From Verrucomicrobiota bacterium (GTDB lineage Bacteria; Verrucomicrobiota; Verrucomicrobiia; Chthoniobacterales; UBA10450): a stretch of 64,000 bases of DNA. A program made the position numbers and the translations under genes. The notes under the pieces were generated by a model, which saw nothing but the letters and a program-made list of their open reading frames with translations, made no database searches and was not told the DNA's origin. Below, one piece after another: positions 3,830-12,789 of the stretch. Where the stretch lies: the NCBI GenBank assembly GCA_019244415.1, contig JAFASN010000130.1, forward strand, positions 22,270 through 86,269, in the 5' to 3' direction. Position 1 is the first letter of the stretch. Every line of letters begins with the position of its first letter.

Positions 3830-4719
3830 GGGGTGAACCCGACACAGTGCAGCGCTTTCGGCAGCAACTCGAAAACCGCTGGCTCATTGCCGATCATTTC
3901 ACCATCTACGTTGAACCACATCCCGGGTCGCGAAGTAATCGCCACCTTTTGCGCCCGCCGGAAGATCACTGCATCGGAGCCAAGATGTCGCCCCAGCAAA
4001 ATTTGCGCAGCGACGATGGCGAGCTCGGCCGGGCCGCGCTCCGGAATTAAGACGACATCGAGCAATCCATCGTCGATCTTCGCTTCCGGTGCGATCGGAA
4101 CACCGCCCGCGACATAGCGGCCGTTCGCGATGACGACGTTGTATAAATCAGTTTCCCAGCCGGGTGTATCATCCAGCGCGACGGTGGTGGTGTAGCCGCG
4201 CAGCTCGGAAAAGGCAGCCGCCGCCGAACGCAAGTACGCCAGCGGTCCCCACGTCTGCTTCATTTCGGGCGTAAGTTTTTCATCAACCACGCCGCTGAAC
4301 CCGCCCGAGGAGACGTTCAGGAAATAGCGGACCCGGTCACTCGTCACACGCACGAGGTCAACATCGCGCGTCTGGCCGGCGCGGATGATCTCGACCGCAG
4401 TTTCCACGTCGCCGGGCAGCCCAAGTGTGCGGGCGAAATCGTTGCCGGTGCCGAGCGGCACGATTCCGAGCGCGGTGCCGCAATGCTCGGTCGCGATTCC
4501 ATTCACCACTTCATTGAGCGTGCCATCACCGCCGGCCGACACGATTAACTCCGCTCCTGCCCGCGCTGCTTCGCGCGCCGCCTGTTCGGCGTGTCCTGGC
4601 GCTTGCGTGAGGTGAAATTCGTCCGGTCGCAACAGCTCTAATTGCCTGCGGATCGCATCAGTCTCTCTCACCGACCCGGCGATTGGATTGAGAATGACTG
4701 CGGTGCGCACGAACGACAC
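3826..4719 (-). CDS. Diacylglycerol/lipid kinase family protein (YegS/DagK fold)
   Basis: Predicted cytoplasmic lipid kinase. Seen: N-terminal VILNPIAGS, the glycine-rich nucleotide loop VSAGGDGTLNEVVNG at about residues 60-75, LGTGNDFARTLG, and the C-terminal beta-sandwich with PEAKIDDGLLDVVLI. Length 297 aa fits the DAGK_cat family. The ORF-track GTG at 4719 and another GTG at 4710 are both possible starts, and the divergent DUF4912 gene begins within the same bases, so the exact starts are uncertain. It heads an operon with the heptose adenylyltransferase and purN. The substrate (diacylglycerol or another lipid) cannot be read from the sequence. Confidence 0.88.
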   Translation of the reverse strand: MSFVRTAVILNPIAGSVRETDAIRRQLELLRPDEFHLTQAPGHAEQAAREAARAGAELIVSAGGDGTLNEVVNGIATEHCGTALGIVPLGTGNDFARTLGLPGDVETAVEIIRAGQTRDVDLVRVTSDRVRYFLNVSSGGFSGVVDEKLTPEMKQTWGPLAYLRSAAAAFSELRGYTTTVALDDTPGWETDLYNVVIANGRYVAGGVPIAPEAKIDDGLLDVVLIPERGPAELAIVAAQILLGRHLGSDAVIFRRAQKVAITSRPGMWFNVDGEMIGNEPAVFELLPKALHCVGFTP

Positions 4720-5479
4720 TCAGCCGCCGGAAGCGGCGAAGCAACGCTCCTTTTCGCTTGCCGAACGAGTAAGTGAATGGTTCAACGCGGGAATGCCAAC
4801 ACGGCCGGCTGATTTCGCCATCTCGAGCGATCCCGTTCCCGCCCGAACTGCGGATTTGGCGGAGCAATCGTCTCAGCCGGAGCTGTACTCAGGGCCGGCG
4901 TCGCTCTTCGCCGTCGCGCGCAATCCCACCACGCTGTTCGTTTGCTGGAATGTGAATTGGGCAGCGGTCTTTGCACACGCGCTGCCGGTGGATCGCAGAG
5001 CGCACGTGAAGTTGAGGTCGGCGCGCGGCGAGCGTACTCACCCTGTCGAGCCGCTGAGCGGAACTTGTTGCATTGGCGACTTGGAACCTGGAGACACGTA
5101 CGAGATCGAGCTCGGTTTCATTCCTGCGCCCGAGCAATGGCAACCGATCACTTCAGCTCCGGCGGTGGAGCTGCCGCGGCAAACGATCGCGATCGACAGC
5201 GCGATCGTGGATGTTGCCAGCGTGCCGTTCCATCTTGAATTTCAGGAGCTGGTGGAATTATTCGACGGTAACGGGAGGGTCGCCGAAGCGCTGGCGGAAC
5301 TCGAGCGACGCGCGGCCGAGAGCGATCTCAGCGCCCGTGTGGATCAGGAGCCGGCGCGCGTACTCAAACTCTCCGCCGAAACGTTGCAGAAAATCACGGC
5401 CACGCGCGAAAAGCTAACGAGATCCCAACCGCGGCGCCTCGAGCGGGAGCAATGGCTCGGCAGCAGTTTGCACGGATGA
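4694..5479 (+). CDS. DUF4912-like protein
   Basis: The middle of the protein (about residues 60-150) resembles the DUF4912 domain: a start like LFAVARNPTTLFVCWNV, a beta-rich stretch, then YEIELGFIP. It is followed by PFHLEFQELVELFD and a charged helical C-terminus. No catalytic motif is visible, and the function of the family is not established. The start is uncertain: ATG 4694 overlaps the 5' end of the divergent lipid kinase; ATG 4793 would avoid the overlap but removes about 33 residues that look protein-like. The gene stands alone between the purN operon and the end of the nos operon. Confidence 0.7.
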   Translation: MTAVRTNDTQPPEAAKQRSFSLAERVSEWFNAGMPTRPADFAISSDPVPARTADLAEQSSQPELYSGPASLFAVARNPTTLFVCWNVNWAAVFAHALPVDRRAHVKLRSARGERTHPVEPLSGTCCIGDLEPGDTYEIELGFIPAPEQWQPITSAPAVELPRQTIAIDSAIVDVASVPFHLEFQELVELFDGNGRVAEALAELERRAAESDLSARVDQEPARVLKLSAETLQKITATREKLTRSQPRRLEREQWLGSSLHG

Positions 5480-5484
5480 GCTGA

Positions 5485-6207
5485 CTACATCTGGCCAAGG
5501 TGCTGCTCGAGCAGCTTCTGCATCTCGCGCGGCTTGGTAAGAATGATGGAGTTCCCTTTGACCTCGAGCAGTTCCTGGGCGCGCAATTTGGCGAGAGTAC
5601 GGGAAAGCGTTTCGCTGGTGCTGCCCATTTCGGCGGCAAGTACACGCTTGGTGCGGTCGAGGCGAATTTCGCAGTCCTTTTGCGGGAGCGGTCGCGGGCA
5701 ACGTTTCAGGAGCCAGTTGGCCAGTCGCGTTTCCATGTCTTTGAGGGTGAGATCGTCGAGAAGTCCCACGATCACGCGCAGGTGCTGGCTCATTGAGCCG
5801 AGCATGCGCAGCGCGAGCTCCGGCCGTTTACGCACAAGCTCCACGAACTCCGTTTTAGGGACGAGCAACACTGTACTTTGCTCAGTGGCGCGAGCGTTGG
5901 CTGGATAGCCCGTTTCGGACGCGAGCGATGCTTCCGCGAACGATTCCACAGGGCGGAAAAGGTAAATCGTCTGTTCTTTCCCCGCTGCGCTGACGCGATG
6001 AACATTGATCGCGCCTCTCTGCACAATGTAAAAACCTTCCGAGCGTGCGCCTTCGCGAAACAGGTACTCACCTTTGGCCAGCTGCTTGGTCACGGCGAAG
6101 GACGCGATGGCATCGATGTCGCTCTGCGCCAGGCCGACAAAAAGCTGGCAGCTGCGTAATGTACTCGCGACGACAATCTGCCGGAAGCCGCTCCCGTCCA
6201 GTGGCAT
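5485..6207 (-). CDS. Crp/Fnr-family regulator (DNR/NnrR-like)
   Basis: Transcription factor with an N-terminal cyclic-nucleotide-binding-fold sensor (about residues 15-135: FREGARSEGFYIVQRGAINV) and a C-terminal Crp-type helix-turn-helix (about 150-230: LAAEMGSTSETLSRTLAKLRAQELLEV). No N-terminal FNR cysteine cluster is present, so it is not an oxygen-sensing FNR proper; the pattern fits DNR/NnrR-type nitrogen-oxide regulators. It is the last gene of the nos operon and a perfect TTGAT-N4-ATCAA site precedes the first gene, so positive autoregulation of the operon is a reasonable inference. Effector unknown. Confidence 0.88.
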   Translation of the reverse strand: MPLDGSGFRQIVVASTLRSCQLFVGLAQSDIDAIASFAVTKQLAKGEYLFREGARSEGFYIVQRGAINVHRVSAAGKEQTIYLFRPVESFAEASLASETGYPANARATEQSTVLLVPKTEFVELVRKRPELALRMLGSMSQHLRVIVGLLDDLTLKDMETRLANWLLKRCPRPLPQKDCEIRLDRTKRVLAAEMGSTSETLSRTLAKLRAQELLEVKGNSIILTKPREMQKLLEQHLGQM

Positions 6208-6231: not shown

Positions 6232-6462
6232 CTATTCGTCGCGCCAAAAATGCGTCAGCCAGCCGCCGGAGAGCCTTTCCACCCGCGAGCGAAATCCTTC
6301 GCCGGCCAGCTTCTCGATAAGCGGCGCGGGAAGAAACGGCGACGAAATCGTGAGTCCCTCGCCGGGCGCGAGCGCCTCAATGGCGGCGCGTATTTCGGGT
6401 AACGGCTCCGTTCCCTGCGCGATGATCGGCCGCACATCGAACATTTTGAATTTCACCGTCAC
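6232..6462 (-). CDS. DUF2249 domain protein in nos operon
   Basis: Small 76-aa protein beginning VKFKMFDVRPIIAQG and containing LAPGEGLTISSPFLPAPLIEKL and a C-terminal GWLTHFWRDE, all typical of the DUF2249 fold related to TusA. I choose a GTG at 6462 that overlaps the nosY stop by 4 bp (GTGA); the longer ORF-track version runs antiparallel into nosY and is unlikely. DUF2249 genes are frequent companions of denitrification and nitric-oxide genes. The biochemical role is not established. Confidence 0.82.
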   Translation of the reverse strand: MTVKFKMFDVRPIIAQGTEPLPEIRAAIEALAPGEGLTISSPFLPAPLIEKLAGEGFRSRVERLSGGWLTHFWRDE

Positions 6463-7232
6463 CCTTCCCACTGTTTCAGCCTCGCACTGGCGAAGTGAGT
6501 GAGCGCTCCGGCCCAGACCAGCGCGATGAATCCAAACCAGAGAGCTGCATGCGCGATCCACCACGCCGCCAGCGGCGTCGTGCCGGCTGCTTCCGCGGGA
6601 ATTTGCTGCAAGGCGAAAAGCGCTTCGATGCGAAAGGCGTCGAGCGGATTCAACATCAAGCACGCCGTCCAGATCTCAGGAACGCGCTGAAGTACAGGCC
6701 ACCGCGCAGCGAAGAGCGCCACCAAATCAATGCCGACGAGCATTAGCAGCCATGCGCTGACGGCGGTGATGAGCGCCTGCGCACGATCGCGCGCGAGAAA
6801 GCCGCAAGCGAGGCCAAGGGCGACGAAAGCCGCCGCCAGCAGAAGCGTTTGCGAAAACAGCAGCGCGAGCGAAGCGAGCGTTGCTCCTGCGAAGAAAGCC
6901 GGAACAAACAACAGCAGCAGTACCGAACCGAAAATCGAGAAGAGCGCAAAAAATTTGCAGATCACAAACGTGCGGCGTCGTAAAGGCTGACTCAACAGGA
7001 GCGGCCATTCCTCGCGTTCGCCTTGCGCGCTGCTCACTCCCGCCAGCAACGAGAACAGCGAGACAAAGTACAGCGCGACCTGAAGAATGAAGAACCCGGT
7101 CGCGTTTGCATCCTCGGCAAACAGCAGGGCAGCCACTCCGCCCAGCAGCGCCAGAGCCGAGAACACCTGAAAATAACGGTTGATTACGACCGAGCGAAGC
7201 TCGCGACGAAACACCGCACGCGAAACATGCAT
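6459..7232 (-). CDS. nosY: NosY-type ABC transporter permease
   Basis: Membrane permease of the NosDFY complex, which supports assembly of the copper-sulfur CuZ site of nitrous oxide reductase. Seen: an N-terminal RRELRS cytosolic segment, then about six transmembrane helices (FSALALLGGVAALLF, FFILQVALYFVSLFSLLAGV, FSIFGSVLLLLFVPAFFAG and others) and the family block GEREEWPLLLSQPLRRRTFVICKF. Start ATG 7232 lies 1 bp after the nosF stop; an upstream in-frame ATG at 7250 overlapping nosF is also possible. The C-terminus overlaps the DUF2249 start. Confidence 0.92.
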   Translation of the reverse strand: MHVSRAVFRRELRSVVINRYFQVFSALALLGGVAALLFAEDANATGFFILQVALYFVSLFSLLAGVSSAQGEREEWPLLLSQPLRRRTFVICKFFALFSIFGSVLLLLFVPAFFAGATLASLALLFSQTLLLAAAFVALGLACGFLARDRAQALITAVSAWLLMLVGIDLVALFAARWPVLQRVPEIWTACLMLNPLDAFRIEALFALQQIPAEAAGTTPLAAWWIAHAALWFGFIALVWAGALTHFASARLKQWEG

Positions 7233-7233
7233 G

Positions 7234-7950
7234 TCAGACCGCAGCGACATTTTCGCGATCGCCCTCACGCGGCGCGAACCGCTCAAGCTCTTCAAAATCG
7301 TGCGGAAGATCGTTCGGATGCAGCTCGCACTCTATCCTTCCCTCACGGCAAAGCAGGCAATGATCGGCCACGCCGTTCCATTCCGCGATCAGGTGAGTGG
7401 TCACGAGCACGGTTTTCCCGCGCTCCGCTTCGCTTTGCAGGATTTCCTGCAGCCGCTTTCGCCAACGCGGGTCAAGACTCAGCCCCGGTTCATCGAGTAA
7501 AAGTACCGGCGCGTCCGGCAGCAGCAGCAAGGCAAGCCCGAGGCGCTGACGCATCCCGCCGGACAGCGCTGCCGTGCGAACGCGCTCGACATCCTGCACG
7601 CCGGCCAGCTCGAGCATCGCTCCCGGTCTCGATGGCGCGACGCCGCGCAATTGCCCATAGAAGCGCAACAGTTCGCCACCCGTAAGACGCGCGTGAAAGC
7701 TCGGGCTCTGCGGTAAGTACGAGAGCGATCGCAGAGCCGCCAGCCGGTCGTGCGCAATGTCGATGCGGTTCACGTGCGCGCTGCCCCGATCCGCTTTCAC
7801 CAGCCCGGCGAGAATCTTCATGGTGGTACTTTTGCCGGCGCCATTTGCGCCCACGAGCAGGGTTATTGCGCCGCGCTGGGCGCGCAGATTCAGCCCGCGC
7901 AGCACTTCTTTGCCCGCGAAGCTTTTTCGCAGATCGCGCGCGACAATCAT
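7234..7950 (-). CDS. nosF: NosF-type ABC transporter ATP-binding protein
   Basis: ATPase of the NosDFY complex. Seen: Walker A GANGAGKST at about residues 35-43, Q-loop in LSYLPQSPSF, signature LSGGMRQRLGLALLLL, Walker B PVLLLDEPGLSLD, and an H-loop VTTHLIAEW. Length 238 aa is typical. It follows nosD by 16 bp and precedes nosY by 1 bp. Its identity as NosF rather than another ABC ATPase rests on the position between nosD and nosY. Confidence 0.94.
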   Translation of the reverse strand: MIVARDLRKSFAGKEVLRGLNLRAQRGAITLLVGANGAGKSTTMKILAGLVKADRGSAHVNRIDIAHDRLAALRSLSYLPQSPSFHARLTGGELLRFYGQLRGVAPSRPGAMLELAGVQDVERVRTAALSGGMRQRLGLALLLLPDAPVLLLDEPGLSLDPRWRKRLQEILQSEAERGKTVLVTTHLIAEWNGVADHCLLCREGRIECELHPNDLPHDFEELERFAPREGDRENVAAV

Positions 7951-7966: not shown

Positions 7967-9463
7967 TCACCTCGCCCCGGCCGCGGTGCTGGCGCGTCGC
8001 GCTCGTATTTTCCAGAACTCCCGCGTAAGCGGCGCCGGATCTTCGATCGAGCTCACTCCGGGAATTTGCGCGCGCTGGTTCGCAAACTGGAGCAGCTTTA
8101 CCGCCGGGCTGCCGGACAGAAACGCGATTGGCGGAAAATTGCGCCGCAGCAAACCGAACAGGTCCACCTCACGATGCGGCAAATCTCCGATGCCGTCGTG
8201 GTTCAGGTCGATCTCGGCGCCGTTGTCCCACAAATTCCCGACGCCGTTTACAGCCCACGCGTTTTGCTCGATGTCCGAGCCGCCGGTTTCGACCGTGTGC
8301 AGGTTTCCGGCAAACACATTCTCGGTGAACTGGTTGCTGTCCTGGTTGGCCGCGAATTTCAGGCCAATGTAATTGTCACAAACGCGGTTGCGCGCGATCT
8401 CGTTGCCGTTGCATTGATTGAACGAGAGACCGACCGCGTCTTTCTCGACCACGTTGTCTTCGAATCGGCAGCGGTCACTCGATTGCACGATGAGGCCGTA
8501 TGCCCGCTGGCCGCGATTGCTGAGGAAACGATTCCCGCGCACGAGCGCTTCTTTTGAAAACATGATTGCGCCGCCCGCGGCGTTATCGCTGAAGGTGTTG
8601 TTCACCACCGCATTCGTGTCGGAGTACATGTAGTGCAGCCCGTAGCGCGTCTGGTGCACGTAATTGTTTTCCGCCCGGGAGTTGTTGGTGAACGAGAAGT
8701 AAATTCCGTCGCGCGTATCGCTAATGTCGTTCCCGCGAATGAGATTACCGTCGCAATTCCACTGGTGCACACCGTTGCCGCGCCAGTTGTTGAGCAGCGC
8801 GGTGTCGCAATTTTCGGTACTTTGGCCCACGCCCTTTTCCACCGGCTCGCCTGAAACCGGAATCGTCGTTTTGCCTTGAATGCGATTCTCGAGTACGCGC
8901 GCGCCGGAAACTTTCTTGAGGTAAACGCCATGAAGCGAATTGGCGATGACGCAATGTTCGATCGTCACGCGATTGCCGGTGACGAACACCGCCGCGTCAT
9001 CCTCGAGCAGTTTCAATCCCGAGCCGGTGATCCGCAGATCGCGGAGAGTAACGTCGTTCGCCGCAATGGTGACGACTTTGCCGGTGTGATCACCGCGAAT
9101 CTCCGCGCCGGCGTCACCGGCAAGCGTCAGCGGTTTGTTAATAACGAGCGCGCCGTTATGAACGCCCGCTTCGATGCGAATGGTGGAATGCGGAGCGGCC
9201 GCATCGATTCGCTGTTGCAGCGGGAGCGTCGCGGCAAGCAGCGGTTGTGAAAACAATAACAGCGCCGCAAAGGCCTGGGGAGCGCACGCGACCTCGCGTG
9301 TATGTTTCGGCGCCCTCGCCGAAACCACCCTCCTAGAGACGAACGGCGAGTCGTCGTTCGCAGCACGCGAGTCGCGTGCGCTCCGCAGAAAATATCGCGC
9401 GCGAACGGCGCGTACGACGCCGAGTCGGAGTACGGACCGAAGCGTAACGGGCGCGAGCGTCAT
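7967..9463 (-). CDS. nosD: NosD, periplasmic beta-helix copper-assembly protein
   Basis: Periplasmic partner of NosFY in building the NosZ copper sites. Seen: from about residue 85 onward a right-handed beta-helix made of repeating units such as NRVTIEHCVIANSLHGVYLKK and NYVHQTRYGLHYMYSDTN, ending with DLPHREVDLFG. The ATG at 9463 overlaps the nosB stop by 4 bp. A signal-like segment AFAALLLFSQPLLAA lies near residues 65-79, unusually far from the start: the codons between come from a palindromic repeat inserted at 9278-9384 that stays in frame. Export of the current protein therefore depends on an atypical long N-region or a different start. Confidence 0.92.
   Translation of the reverse strand: MTLAPVTLRSVLRLGVVRAVRARYFLRSARDSRAANDDSPFVSRRVVSARAPKHTREVACAPQAFAALLLFSQPLLAATLPLQQRIDAAAPHSTIRIEAGVHNGALVINKPLTLAGDAGAEIRGDHTGKVVTIAANDVTLRDLRITGSGLKLLEDDAAVFVTGNRVTIEHCVIANSLHGVYLKKVSGARVLENRIQGKTTIPVSGEPVEKGVGQSTENCDTALLNNWRGNGVHQWNCDGNLIRGNDISDTRDGIYFSFTNNSRAENNYVHQTRYGLHYMYSDTNAVVNNTFSDNAAGGAIMFSKEALVRGNRFLSNRGQRAYGLIVQSSDRCRFEDNVVEKDAVGLSFNQCNGNEIARNRVCDNYIGLKFAANQDSNQFTENVFAGNLHTVETGGSDIEQNAWAVNGVGNLWDNGAEIDLNHDGIGDLPHREVDLFGLLRRNFPPIAFLSGSPAVKLLQFANQRAQIPGVSSIEDPAPLTREFWKIRARRASTAAGAR
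9278..9384. repeat. REP-like compound palindrome inside the 5' end of nosD
   Basis: Outer arms GGAGCGCACGCGACCTCGCGTG (left) and its near-exact complement at 9364-9384 (CACGCGAGTCGCGTGCGCTCC) differ by one bulged base. Inside lies a perfect 9-bp stem GTTTCGGCG/CGCCGAAAC with loop CCCT, and a third weaker stem CGAACG/CGTTCG. The element is about 107 bp and separates the nosD start codon from the codons of its signal-like segment. It looks like a dispersed REP/MITE-type element; the copy number elsewhere in the genome is unknown. Confidence 0.8.
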
Positions 9464-10089
9464 GCAAACGGTTCCTTTCGCGAGAACCAGCCGGCCAGCA
9501 TGATCATCAAGACCGACGCGCAGAGCAGAATGGCGCCGAGCTGCGGGAAGCTGTACTCACGGAAGTTCGCGATCTGTTTTACCCCGATGAGCAGCGGCGT
9601 GAACGGCTTGATGCGCACCGGCGCGTGTGGGTCGAGGTTGTGCCCGTAGGTGTAGAGCCGGTACCAGAACGACGCGATGGAAAAGATGCCGAAGTAGCAG
9701 TAAACGGCGAAGAGATCGACGAGGTTGCCCATGCTGCCGAACACGATCGAGCGCAGGATCATGAGGATGATCAAACCGAACACGAACGGCATCCAGCGCA
9801 TCTCCAGGAAATCGGCCTGCTGGATCGGCTTCATGCCGATGTAATGATTCAGGCCGTTAATTTCGTTCAGGTGCTGCCCGTTCAATCCGCCGCCGACGAT
9901 CTTGTAGGTGTAGATGTAGAGATCGAGCCCGTCTGAGTACTGCGGTGCGACGAGGTGCATGCGCCAGAGCGGAAAGAAGAGCGAGACCGCGATCGTGATC
10001 GCCGCGGCGAGCAGCAGCAAACGAGACCTCAAGTTCAGCGGCCGGCTCAGAAACCGGAATTCTCGCCGGAGCAGCTCGGAAATGTTCAT
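9460..10089 (-). CDS. nosB: NosB-like membrane protein of clade II nos cluster
   Basis: A 209-aa membrane protein starting MNISELLRREFRFLSRPLNLRSR, with about five hydrophobic segments (LLLLAAAITIAVSLFFPLW, FVFGLIILMILRSIVFG, LFAVYCYFGIFSIASFW, LGAILLCASVLMIMLAGWF). Conserved-looking periplasmic residues occur in NEINGLNHYIGMKP. Known: nosB is found directly downstream of clade II (atypical) nosZ genes and its role is not firmly established. ATG 10089 is chosen because the longer ORF-track version begins within the low-complexity end of nosZ. It lies 55 bp after nosZ and overlaps nosD. Confidence 0.88.
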   Translation of the reverse strand: MNISELLRREFRFLSRPLNLRSRLLLLAAAITIAVSLFFPLWRMHLVAPQYSDGLDLYIYTYKIVGGGLNGQHLNEINGLNHYIGMKPIQQADFLEMRWMPFVFGLIILMILRSIVFGSMGNLVDLFAVYCYFGIFSIASFWYRLYTYGHNLDPHAPVRIKPFTPLLIGVKQIANFREYSFPQLGAILLCASVLMIMLAGWFSRKEPFA

Positions 10090-10144: not shown

Positions 10145-12238
10145 TTACGGTTGCGGTGACGCGCTCTCGGCGGGGCTTGCCGGCGCGCTTGCATTCGAGC
10201 TCGCAGACGAAGCAGCGTTGGGGCTCGCGGGCGGGATGGGCGGACCCGCTTCGGGATTCTCGGTTGCGGGTACCGGCGATTCCGTCGCGGTTCCCTTGGT
10301 GTCAACACTTGGAATTGTTGGGCCGGGCTGCGGTGCGCCTGGCGTATTCGTGTAAACGGCGCCCGGCATGGGCTGGCCTGTGTTTGCAAACACCAGGTAA
10401 CCCTGCATTTCCTGGTGCAAAGCCGAGCAGAAGTTCGTGCAGTAGAACGGGAACACGCCCGGCTTGGTCACTTTCATGTGCAGCGTCTTGGTTTCGCCGG
10501 GATCCATCACCATGTTGATGTTGTTTTCGACAACACCGAACCCGTGGATCATGTCCCGCGTTTGCTCGACGTTGGTGACATGGATCGTGAGGTCATCGCC
10601 CACCTGCGCATCGATGCGGTCCGGGATGAAGCGGCTGCGAATGGCGATCACCTTCGCTTCCACCTTGTTGCCGTTGCGAGTCACACCGGTCTGTGCCTTA
10701 TCCCAAACGGCGTTCGGATCGTGGTTCTCCTGTTTCGGATACGCCTCGATCGGCTGCACGTCGCTCACTTTCAGGATTTGCGCGAAATGCGGCTCCGCCT
10801 CTGTGTACGTTTCGTACACCATCTTCATCTTCGCGCCGGTAATGTCGATGAGTTGACTGGACTCCGGCTGTGAGGGCCCGACGTTGATGTGGCGTCCGGC
10901 GGAAAGCTTGTTCATCGCGACGAGCCATTTCCCGTACGGATGCGCGGTGTCGCTGCCGGCGACGACGAGGTGACCCGTGCTGTAATGCGTCGGTACTTTA
11001 TCCAGCACCGTTTTGGTCATGTCTTTGCGTTCGTCGTCACTCCAGGGCGGGAGCTTCCATTTAGTAATATTCGAGTCGATGAAGAGCGAGGTGTAGGCAT
11101 TGCCCACGCCGTCGAACTGCGTGTGCAGCGGCCCCAGCCCGACCGGCACTTCGCCTTCAACGACCGCCTCGTACTTAACCACCGGAATTCCGCGTACTTC
11201 GCCGCTGAACGTTTTGTTATCGATCGCGGCTTTCAGTTTCTCGAAGTTCACCACGGTCACTGAAGGCTGCAATTTGCCGCCGTAGGCGAGCCATTTACCG
11301 GTCGGATCGGTGTCCACGCCGTGCGGCGATTTGCCGATGGGCAGAAAGTACAAGATACCCGGCACCTTGGCCGGATCGAGCACCGGCACGCCGGCCATTT
11401 CCTGCGCTTTGCCCTGCGCCACGGCCTGCTCAGCCGCGCGCCAGTTCACAATGGCGGAATAATCGCGATCCATTTGGGTCGAGTTCACTTCGAGAACGTC
11501 GTGCGCCATTTCGCTGTTGTAGCTGGTCCAGAACGCCCATCCGCTCGAAGGGCCTTTGCCGGTCGACGCGAGGTCCCAATCAAATGGCGGCGTGAGGATT
11601 TGCCAGGCCACACTCATGTTGCCGGTTTGCGGATCGACTTTGATCGCGCTCACCATGCCGTTGAATTCTTTCGGGTAGTCGTTCGGATCAGCGACGCGGC
11701 CCTTCGGCAGCGGGACGGAGAAACGCGTCGCCACGAGCAGGTACTCAGTGTTCTCGGTGACAAACGACGAACCGTGATTGCCCATCGAGTTCGGGATTGG
11801 GCCGAGGATCTGGTGCGTTTTGAAATCGCGCAGATCGATGCGCGCCACGCGGTTGTTGGCGTTGTCGTTCACAAACAGCCAGCGGCCGTCGTACTTCGAC
11901 TGTGTTTGCGAGAGCGCGGGATGATGCACATCGCCCCAGGTGTACTGGCCGAGCATCTTTTTCGATTCCTCATCGTAGCCATAGCCGGTGCCTGAGTACG
12001 GCGAGAACACCGGGATGGTGGTGATGTGACGCATCGAAGGAATGCCGGCGACAAACACCTGGCCCGAGTGCCCGCCCGAATAGAACAGGTAGTACTCGTC
12101 CTTCTCCCCTGGCGCGACGTAAGTGGCTGATGCGTTGGCCGCGCGATAGCCTTTGTTCGTGCTGCTGCTTTCAAAGCAGCTCGTCAGCGAAAACGCGGCG
12201 CACGCAACCGTTCCCGCAAACAGCAACTTCGTTTTCAT
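10145..12238 (-). CDS. nosZ: Nitrous oxide reductase, clade II-type NosZ
   Basis: Periplasmic multicopper enzyme reducing N2O to N2. Seen: signal MKTKLLFAGTVACAAFSLTSC with a lipobox (LTSC) rather than a twin-arginine signal; a seven-bladed propeller containing CuZ-type histidines in DVHHPALS, GNHGSSF, SPHGVDTDP, GPLHTQFDG, GSDTAHP and AEPHFAQ; and a C-terminal cupredoxin with the CuA motif CTNFCSALHQEMQGY. Beyond CuA there is a tail of about 70 residues rich in Pro, Ala and Ser. Start ATG 12238 (697 aa) is chosen because the ORF-track extension runs into azurin. A Sec/lipoprotein signal, nosB next door and a DFY set fit clade II. It follows the azurin gene by 17 bp. Confidence 0.96.
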   Translation of the reverse strand: MKTKLLFAGTVACAAFSLTSCFESSSTNKGYRAANASATYVAPGEKDEYYLFYSGGHSGQVFVAGIPSMRHITTIPVFSPYSGTGYGYDEESKKMLGQYTWGDVHHPALSQTQSKYDGRWLFVNDNANNRVARIDLRDFKTHQILGPIPNSMGNHGSSFVTENTEYLLVATRFSVPLPKGRVADPNDYPKEFNGMVSAIKVDPQTGNMSVAWQILTPPFDWDLASTGKGPSSGWAFWTSYNSEMAHDVLEVNSTQMDRDYSAIVNWRAAEQAVAQGKAQEMAGVPVLDPAKVPGILYFLPIGKSPHGVDTDPTGKWLAYGGKLQPSVTVVNFEKLKAAIDNKTFSGEVRGIPVVKYEAVVEGEVPVGLGPLHTQFDGVGNAYTSLFIDSNITKWKLPPWSDDERKDMTKTVLDKVPTHYSTGHLVVAGSDTAHPYGKWLVAMNKLSAGRHINVGPSQPESSQLIDITGAKMKMVYETYTEAEPHFAQILKVSDVQPIEAYPKQENHDPNAVWDKAQTGVTRNGNKVEAKVIAIRSRFIPDRIDAQVGDDLTIHVTNVEQTRDMIHGFGVVENNINMVMDPGETKTLHMKVTKPGVFPFYCTNFCSALHQEMQGYLVFANTGQPMPGAVYTNTPGAPQPGPTIPSVDTKGTATESPVPATENPEAGPPIPPASPNAASSASSNASAPASPAESASPQP

Positions 12239-12255: not shown

Positions 12256-12741
12256 TCACTGCGCTTTCACTGTGAACGTGCCTTTCATTCCCTGCGTGGC
12301 GTGCCCCGGGAAAGTACAGGCGAAGTCGTAATCGCCGGGCACGTACGGCGCCGTAAACGTGACGCTGTCGCTTTCGCCGGGCCCGAGCAGTTTCGTGTGG
12401 GCGATCACATCCCTGGCCGAGGCGGGCGGGACGTAATCGTGCGCGGCATCCATGGAAGCGTTCTCGACGAACTGGTTCCAATTCACGCCTTTGTTCAGCA
12501 GGACGAAGTTGTGGCCCATCGACGCTTTGGGCGAGGTGCCTTTGTTCGAGAGCGTCACCGTGACCTGCTGGCCAGGTACGGCTTCGAGCGCAGTGGTGCT
12601 GAATTTCATCTTGTCATCGGCGCTGAGCTCGAGCGTCTTCGGGGGCGCCGATGGAGCGCGGTTACAGCCAGCAAGTGAAAGGAATAGCGCACCGCAGCCG
12701 ACGATGACCGCCGGCAGCGCATGAAGGGCAGATTTTCTCAT
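12256..12741 (-). CDS. Azurin-like blue copper lipoprotein
   Basis: Small electron-transfer cupredoxin. Seen: lipoprotein signal ending FLSLAGC, then a cupredoxin domain with copper ligands His in KASMGHNFVLL and the Cys-His-Met cluster DFACTFPGHATQGMKG. Length 161 aa equals a signal plus the usual azurin of about 128 aa. It is the first gene of the nos operon, so it is a plausible electron donor to the NosZ CuA centre (inference). No Shine-Dalgarno sequence precedes the ATG, and the FNR box is spaced so that transcription could start at the ATG itself. Confidence 0.92.
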   Translation of the reverse strand: MRKSALHALPAVIVGCGALFLSLAGCNRAPSAPPKTLELSADDKMKFSTTALEAVPGQQVTVTLSNKGTSPKASMGHNFVLLNKGVNWNQFVENASMDAAHDYVPPASARDVIAHTKLLGPGESDSVTFTAPYVPGDYDFACTFPGHATQGMKGTFTVKAQ

Positions 12742-12775
12742 TGGAGCAAAATGGGAAGTCCGCCCTCACCGCGCT

Positions 12776-12789
12776 TTGATGCAGATCAA
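12776..12789. promoter_or_regulatory. Perfect FNR/DNR box upstream of the nos operon
   Basis: The 14-mer TTGATGCAGATCAA matches the FNR/DNR consensus TTGAT-N4-ATCAA exactly. Its centre lies 41.5 bp from the azurin ATG, the classic distance between a class II FNR-type site and the transcription start, and a weak -10 (CATTTT, 12753-12748) is present. It lies between divergent azurin and ybdK. The Crp/Fnr protein at the end of the operon is the obvious candidate ligand. Confidence 0.82.

Follow-up and report, generated by a model that had tools for sequence, protein, structure and literature searches.

We propose that the azurin-nosZ-nosB-nosD-nosF-nosY-DUF2249-crp operon found in the window (the whole stretch of 64,000 nucleotides that was analysed) is transcribed from a DNR-type class II activator promoter as a leaderless mRNA, with the operon's own regulator as the most likely activator, a reading to which we give a probability of about 0.82. 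According to this proposal the operator would be bound at -41.5 by a dimeric activator of the Crp/Fnr family, most probably the DNR-like product of the last gene, which would contact RNA polymerase in the class II manner. Transcription would begin at the azurin ATG or within 1 nt of it, giving a leaderless mRNA, and translation of azurin would, as usual in this lineage, do without a Shine-Dalgarno sequence. The regulator is probably carried on the same transcript, and activation would in consequence be self-reinforcing. Comparison of related sequences supports the operator, the phase of the -10 element, the position of the ATG and the association of the regulator with the operon, while binding, the start site, the NO signal, leaderless translation and the positive loop are what we infer.

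The genes between 12741 and 5485 are collinear on the minus strand with intergenic gaps of at most 55 bp, in the order azurin, nosZ, a membrane protein in the nosB position, nosD, nosF, nosY-like, DUF2249 and Crp/Fnr regulator (Table 1). A TIGR04246 NosZ accompanied by nosB, nosD, nosF and nosY places the operon among the clade II (Sec-dependent) nos operons, and its gene order is common to its relatives, being the same in genomes G034, G019, G022 and G062; the G101 regulator is found 1.45 kb beyond DUF2249, and in G011 and G070 the contig stops before the regulator position. In keeping with a Chthoniobacterales genome, the closest named nosZ loci are those of MAGs from this order. Both NosZ (LTSC) and azurin (LAGC) of the window look like lipoproteins, and NosZ bears a Pro/Ser/Ala-rich C-terminal tail of ~80 residues past the conserved domain.

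Table 1. Features of the azurin-nos operon and of its predicted promoter.
Feature	Coordinates	Strand	Evidence and remarks
DNR/FNR-type operator TTGATCTGCATCAA	12776..12789	-	centre -41.5 from predicted start site; conserved in nine family relatives at same ATG distance
predicted -10 hexamer CATTTT	12748..12753	-	A at -11, T at -7; weak TATAAT match; sits where class II geometry requires
predicted transcription start	12741	-	A of azurin ATG, ~+/-2 nt; inferred from class II spacing and -10 phase
azurin-type cupredoxin lipoprotein, 161 aa, first operon gene	12256..12741	-	PF00127 3.7e-17; TIGR02695 4.8e-26, below its cut-off
nosZ, clade II Sec-dependent N2O reductase	10145..12238	-	TIGR04246 833 bits (cut-off 625)
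conserved membrane protein, nosB position	9460..10089	-	no family match; same place in relatives
nosD	7967..9463	-	TIGR04247 365 bits (cut-off 300)
nosF, ABC ATPase	7234..7950	-	PF00005
nosY-like ABC-2 membrane protein, start uncertain	6459..7232	-	weak PF12698 below cut-off, and position
DUF2249 (COG4309) protein, start uncertain	6232..6486	-	PF10006 7.1e-12
Crp/Fnr regulator, last operon gene	5485..6207	-	SETLSR recognition helix, DNR-like sensor domain, no FNR Cys cluster

The first-pass annotation had recognised a Crp/Fnr protein in the last gene, and this is correct: the 240-aa product combines a cNMP-binding fold with an HTH_Crp_2 domain. Its SETLSR recognition helix is of the E..SR type of FNR and DNR. 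The protein contains only three Cys and is therefore not a [4Fe-4S] FNR; the name FNR was rejected, as the N-terminal Cys cluster is absent and the NCBIfam Fnr model gives 62 bits against a cut-off of 228, and so was FtrB, whose NCBIfam equivalog gives 106.6 bits against 211. Pseudomonas aeruginosa DNR (3dkw) is a clear sequence relative (E 9.6e-19, with a FAEA segment in common) even if only the third-best solved one, and the Crp/Fnr fold, the E..SR helix and the lack of a 4-Cys sensor are features of DNR found again here. The His-His pair of DNR aligns with Cys-Gln, the Cys being kept in the full-length family orthologues. Of the two kinds named in the earlier FNR/DNR label of the box, the regulator resembles DNR and not FNR, whose cysteine cluster it lacks. 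A second paralogue of the regulator, 59% identical, is present in G062 (contig C1, L244), and a partial one in G028, a genome in which nosZ was not detected.

Of the 12 nosZ-bearing genomes of the family 10 encode an orthologue of the regulator (~70% identity or more), versus 1 of the 71 others (Fisher p ~3e-10). Furthermore G015 (locus L095), which possesses azurin and nosZ, has neither the DNR box nor the regulator; in G030 the box is present on a truncated contig and no regulator was found. This co-occurrence favours the link between regulator, box and operon that had been suggested from the window, and the assignment of this protein to the box may be regarded as well supported at the level of sequence. 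A different Crp/Fnr protein, for example a true FNR encoded outside the assembled part, might nevertheless be the activator, with the operon's regulator acting elsewhere. Two considerations give room for this: the MAG is 92.6% complete, and TTGATN4ATCAA is bound by several Crp/Fnr subfamilies. However, no other FNR/DNR-like protein was found in the genome, in which the single further HTH_Crp_2 match above cut-off lies on a MarR-like 156-aa ORF, and the association of the regulator with nosZ, together with the joint absence of regulator and box from G015, makes this explanation unlikely though not negligible. The regulator's own start was searched for a second box (up to 2 mismatches) and none was found nearby; given the gene order, a closed positive autoregulatory loop is plausible.

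The DNR likeness of the regulator and the presence of DUF2249 suggest that NO may be the signal. The genome's NirK-like protein scores below the family cut-off; contig C126 of G000 (L248, 1492-3066) encodes a NirK-like protein that carries a fused membrane region at its N terminus, and no DNR box with up to 1 mismatch was found near its gene. There are three COX1-family proteins in the genome, one of which adjoins a CcoO-like gene, and a non-exhaustive look at the genome identified no dedicated NO reductase.

The box itself had been described as an exact FNR/DNR consensus match centred 41.5 bp from the azurin ATG, and both statements hold. The element is an exact TTGATN4ATCAA 14-mer centred at 12782.5, which puts its midpoint 41.5 bp from the first base of the ATG. 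In the window it consists of the core without the flanking C and G of the family consensus, whose flanks extend the box to CCTTGATN4ATCAAGG; this consensus matches the CTTGATN4ATCAAG operator known to precede nos genes (PMC1274295). A feature that had gone unmentioned is the CATTTT -10-like element downstream of the box. When azurin-nos loci were compared within the family and across the remainder of the phylum, a box with 0 or 1 mismatch was present in ten family members (the window included; NosZ 74-85% identical), with the ATG at 41.5 bp from the box centre in seven of them and at 42.5 bp in three. In these promoters the stretch that separates box and -10 has a mean identity of only 30%. 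Thus the spacer sequence has diverged with the distance to the ATG kept, and it is the spacing that is conserved.

Anchoring eighteen promoters on the box (the ten family members and eight Opitutaceae-type loci) places an A at -11 in every one. The pair A..T at -11/-7 appears in 16 promoters against 0.57 expected, and TANNNT in nine against 0.10, both at the one offset expected from class II geometry, although related sequences are not independent samples. By phase, then, these 16 show the class II arrangement of a site near -41.5 with a -10 element at -12 to -7, the window with its CATTTT. The predicted start in the family falls at the ATG or one base before it, and most of the Opitutaceae-type loci would have leaders of 1-7 nt, mostly 5-6.

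It might be argued that the box is used but the operon mRNA carries an ordinary leader, arising from another start site (an upstream promoter, or a different azurin start), the 41.5 bp being incidental. The -10 of the window is indeed weak, and leaderless initiation is a poorer fit for two loci, L106 and L093. The in-frame ATG of L106, 42.5 bp from the box centre, precedes the apparent lipoprotein start by ~34 codons, which leaves room for a leader there, and L093 has no T at -7 and contains a Shine-Dalgarno-like AGGAG. The T at -7 is also missing from L094, and in the Opitutaceae-type L121 the start codon is ambiguous. Some azurin-nos loci (L095, L119, L099) are devoid of a box; in L095 the nos operon is instead adjoined by a gene for an NnrS-like membrane protein (3906-5090), a name given by eye only. 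Against an ordinary leader stand the -10 signature, which peaks at one offset from the box in 16 of the 18 promoters, the conservation of the ATG distance and not of the spacer sequence, and an excess of in-phase over off-phase sites of 44:4 within the class, as detailed below. We consider this explanation improbable, and the class II, leaderless reading of the first-pass annotation receives strong support from the ATG distance, the -10 phase and the phased-pattern counts. The comparison speaks well for a predicted DNR-type class II promoter that starts transcription at the first codon, and it looks like a conserved regulatory design, the layout being found again in nearly all related box-bearing operons and ahead of other NO genes in the class.

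The translation signals were analysed in samples of ~0.3-0.4 Mb per genome with simple start calls. At the azurin gene there is no Shine-Dalgarno 4-mer from -20 to -4 of the ATG, and at nine of the ten family azurin starts such 4-mers are absent from the usual -15 to -5 region. This had been noticed before and taken in favour of leaderlessness; the observation is true, but it is uninformative on that point, since the G000 and G022 samples display no Shine-Dalgarno enrichment upstream of start codons, and the missing sequence is thus a property of the lineage. TANNNT is enriched about two- to threefold at -17 to -11 in the same samples, versus ~1.1- to 1.4-fold for control motifs, and the azurin start carries the corresponding leaderless-gene signal, a TANNNT-like element ~12 bp upstream with no Shine-Dalgarno sequence.

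The 3.15-Mb assembly holds two exact TTGATN4ATCAA sites, where ~0.96 would be expected at 58% G+C, and the chance of an exact site in any given 100 bp is ~3e-5. The azurin box is consequently weak evidence genome-wide and strong evidence at one pre-specified place. The other exact site (C17, another contig) overlaps the start codon of an unrelated HTH-type ORF and was for this reason treated as a chance occurrence and not as a second operator. That the azurin box too is a chance match, or else a neutral or repressor site, is very improbable in spite of the roughly one exact match expected in a genome of this size, because the site, its flanks and its phase are conserved across genera and because activators of CRP/FNR promoters classically sit at -41.5, in register with the -10 element. 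The box is also unlikely to serve the divergent YbdK-type ligase gene (12845 onward), whose ATG and the box centre are 62.5 bp apart; in relatives this gene either went undetected in the vicinity of the operon or is separated from it by well over 1 kb.

The layout was then sought across the phylum. A search for the box with any ATG gave too much background, and the phased pattern box-N22-TANNNT-N6..13-ATG was used in its place, applied to 388 genomes with the same elements placed 6 bp off-phase as a control. The phased pattern gave 62 matches against 20 off-phase, 44 against 4 within the class, and 34 against 1 in the three families holding most matches, which were chosen after the result was seen. 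The tail from the -10 to the ATG is 6 or 7 nt in 19 of the 34 cases of these three families (p ~1e-4), corresponding to leaders of 0-1 nt. The genes behind the phased sites include five DUF2249 genes, azurins, SCO1-CusF fusions, a NirK-like oxidase fused to cytochrome c, another multicopper oxidase, COX1-family/heme-copper oxidases, cytochrome c, a bacterial globin, a TonB receptor and cupins; they belong mostly to NO/N2O or copper respiration, and functional coherence was not a criterion of the search. A set of 80 nosZ loci spanning many phyla showed no clear phased site outside Verrucomicrobiota.

The regulon of the family itself appears small, the same exact layout having been seen beyond nos only at a cNMP-domain gene in G018. 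This gene, found just upstream of azurin in G018 (L005, 1-700) and also in L013, encodes a cNMP-binding-domain protein without HTH; it has an exact box of its own, an ATG at 41.5 bp from the centre and a -10 CATTAT, and would represent a second leaderless-type gene beside the nos operon. In Opitutaceae-type genomes CusF-SCO1 fusions lie repeatedly behind phased boxes (L123 11273-12121, L124 6685-7533, L127 7013-7885, L288 908-1744), which suggests a copper-delivery role with nos. G191 (L289, L290) has six phased boxes within ~30 kb, before DUF2249, cytochrome c, COX1-like and truncated globin genes among others, a region that we regard as a denitrification island. A Verrucomicrobiota-wide NO/N2O regulon, comprising nos, azurin, DUF2249, SCO1-CusF, NirK-like oxidases, globin and heme-copper oxidases, may then operate from leaderless or near-leaderless class II DNR-type promoters with operator, -10 and start codon in one register, a reading to which we give about even odds.

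Soils are rich in Verrucomicrobia, and the clade II nosZ of this family is an N2O sink with little-studied regulation. If our reading is right, a short DNA pattern would predict nitrogen-oxide-responsive verrucomicrobial genes together with their start codons to the base, and it raises the question of whether leaderless translation ties expression of the N2O reductase operon to the balance of ribosomes and initiation factors. Should the one-register regulon exist, promoter geometry would dictate transcription as well as how translation is initiated, and the N2O respiration of these soil bacteria would be a leaderless stimulon.

Work on bacterial leaderless genes describes TANNNT ~12 bp upstream of the start codon as the mark of the TA-led type (PMC3160421), and that on Akkermansia muciniphila, of the same phylum, gives ~10% of mapped start sites as leaderless (PMC4782308). 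Both are genome-wide catalogues, and in their accessible parts we found no link to DNR/FNR class II promoters; a literature search excluding most subscription journals found no leaderless nos or DNR regulons. In Nitrosophilus labii, whose nos genes are also of clade II, TTGA-N6-TCAA sites lie upstream and the nosB site is 48 bases from the predicted start; unlike in the window, the predicted starts there are 15-37 bases before ribosome binding sites, and the transcripts are leadered (PMC11539149). The FixK2-dependent nosR promoter of Bradyrhizobium diazoefficiens likewise has a Crp/Fnr box before nos genes, with a mapped start 40.5 bp from the box axis, but it belongs to an alphaproteobacterial nosRZDYFLX arrangement with a different regulator (PMC5582078). 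The DNR-regulated denitrification promoters resemble ours in the operator, whose consensus precedes nos and other NO genes in Pseudomonas and beta-proteobacteria, in the Crp/Fnr activator and in the link to DUF2249, COG4309 being found in NO regulons of Proteobacteria (PMC1274295). They differ in that the sensor-domain sequence here is distant from that of their DNR and in that the operator here is placed for a start at the start codon, leaderless transcripts being unmentioned in that work (PMC1274295). The promoter would thus belong to a known class, DNR-type class II, and what would be new is its predicted placement, with transcription starting at the start codon itself.
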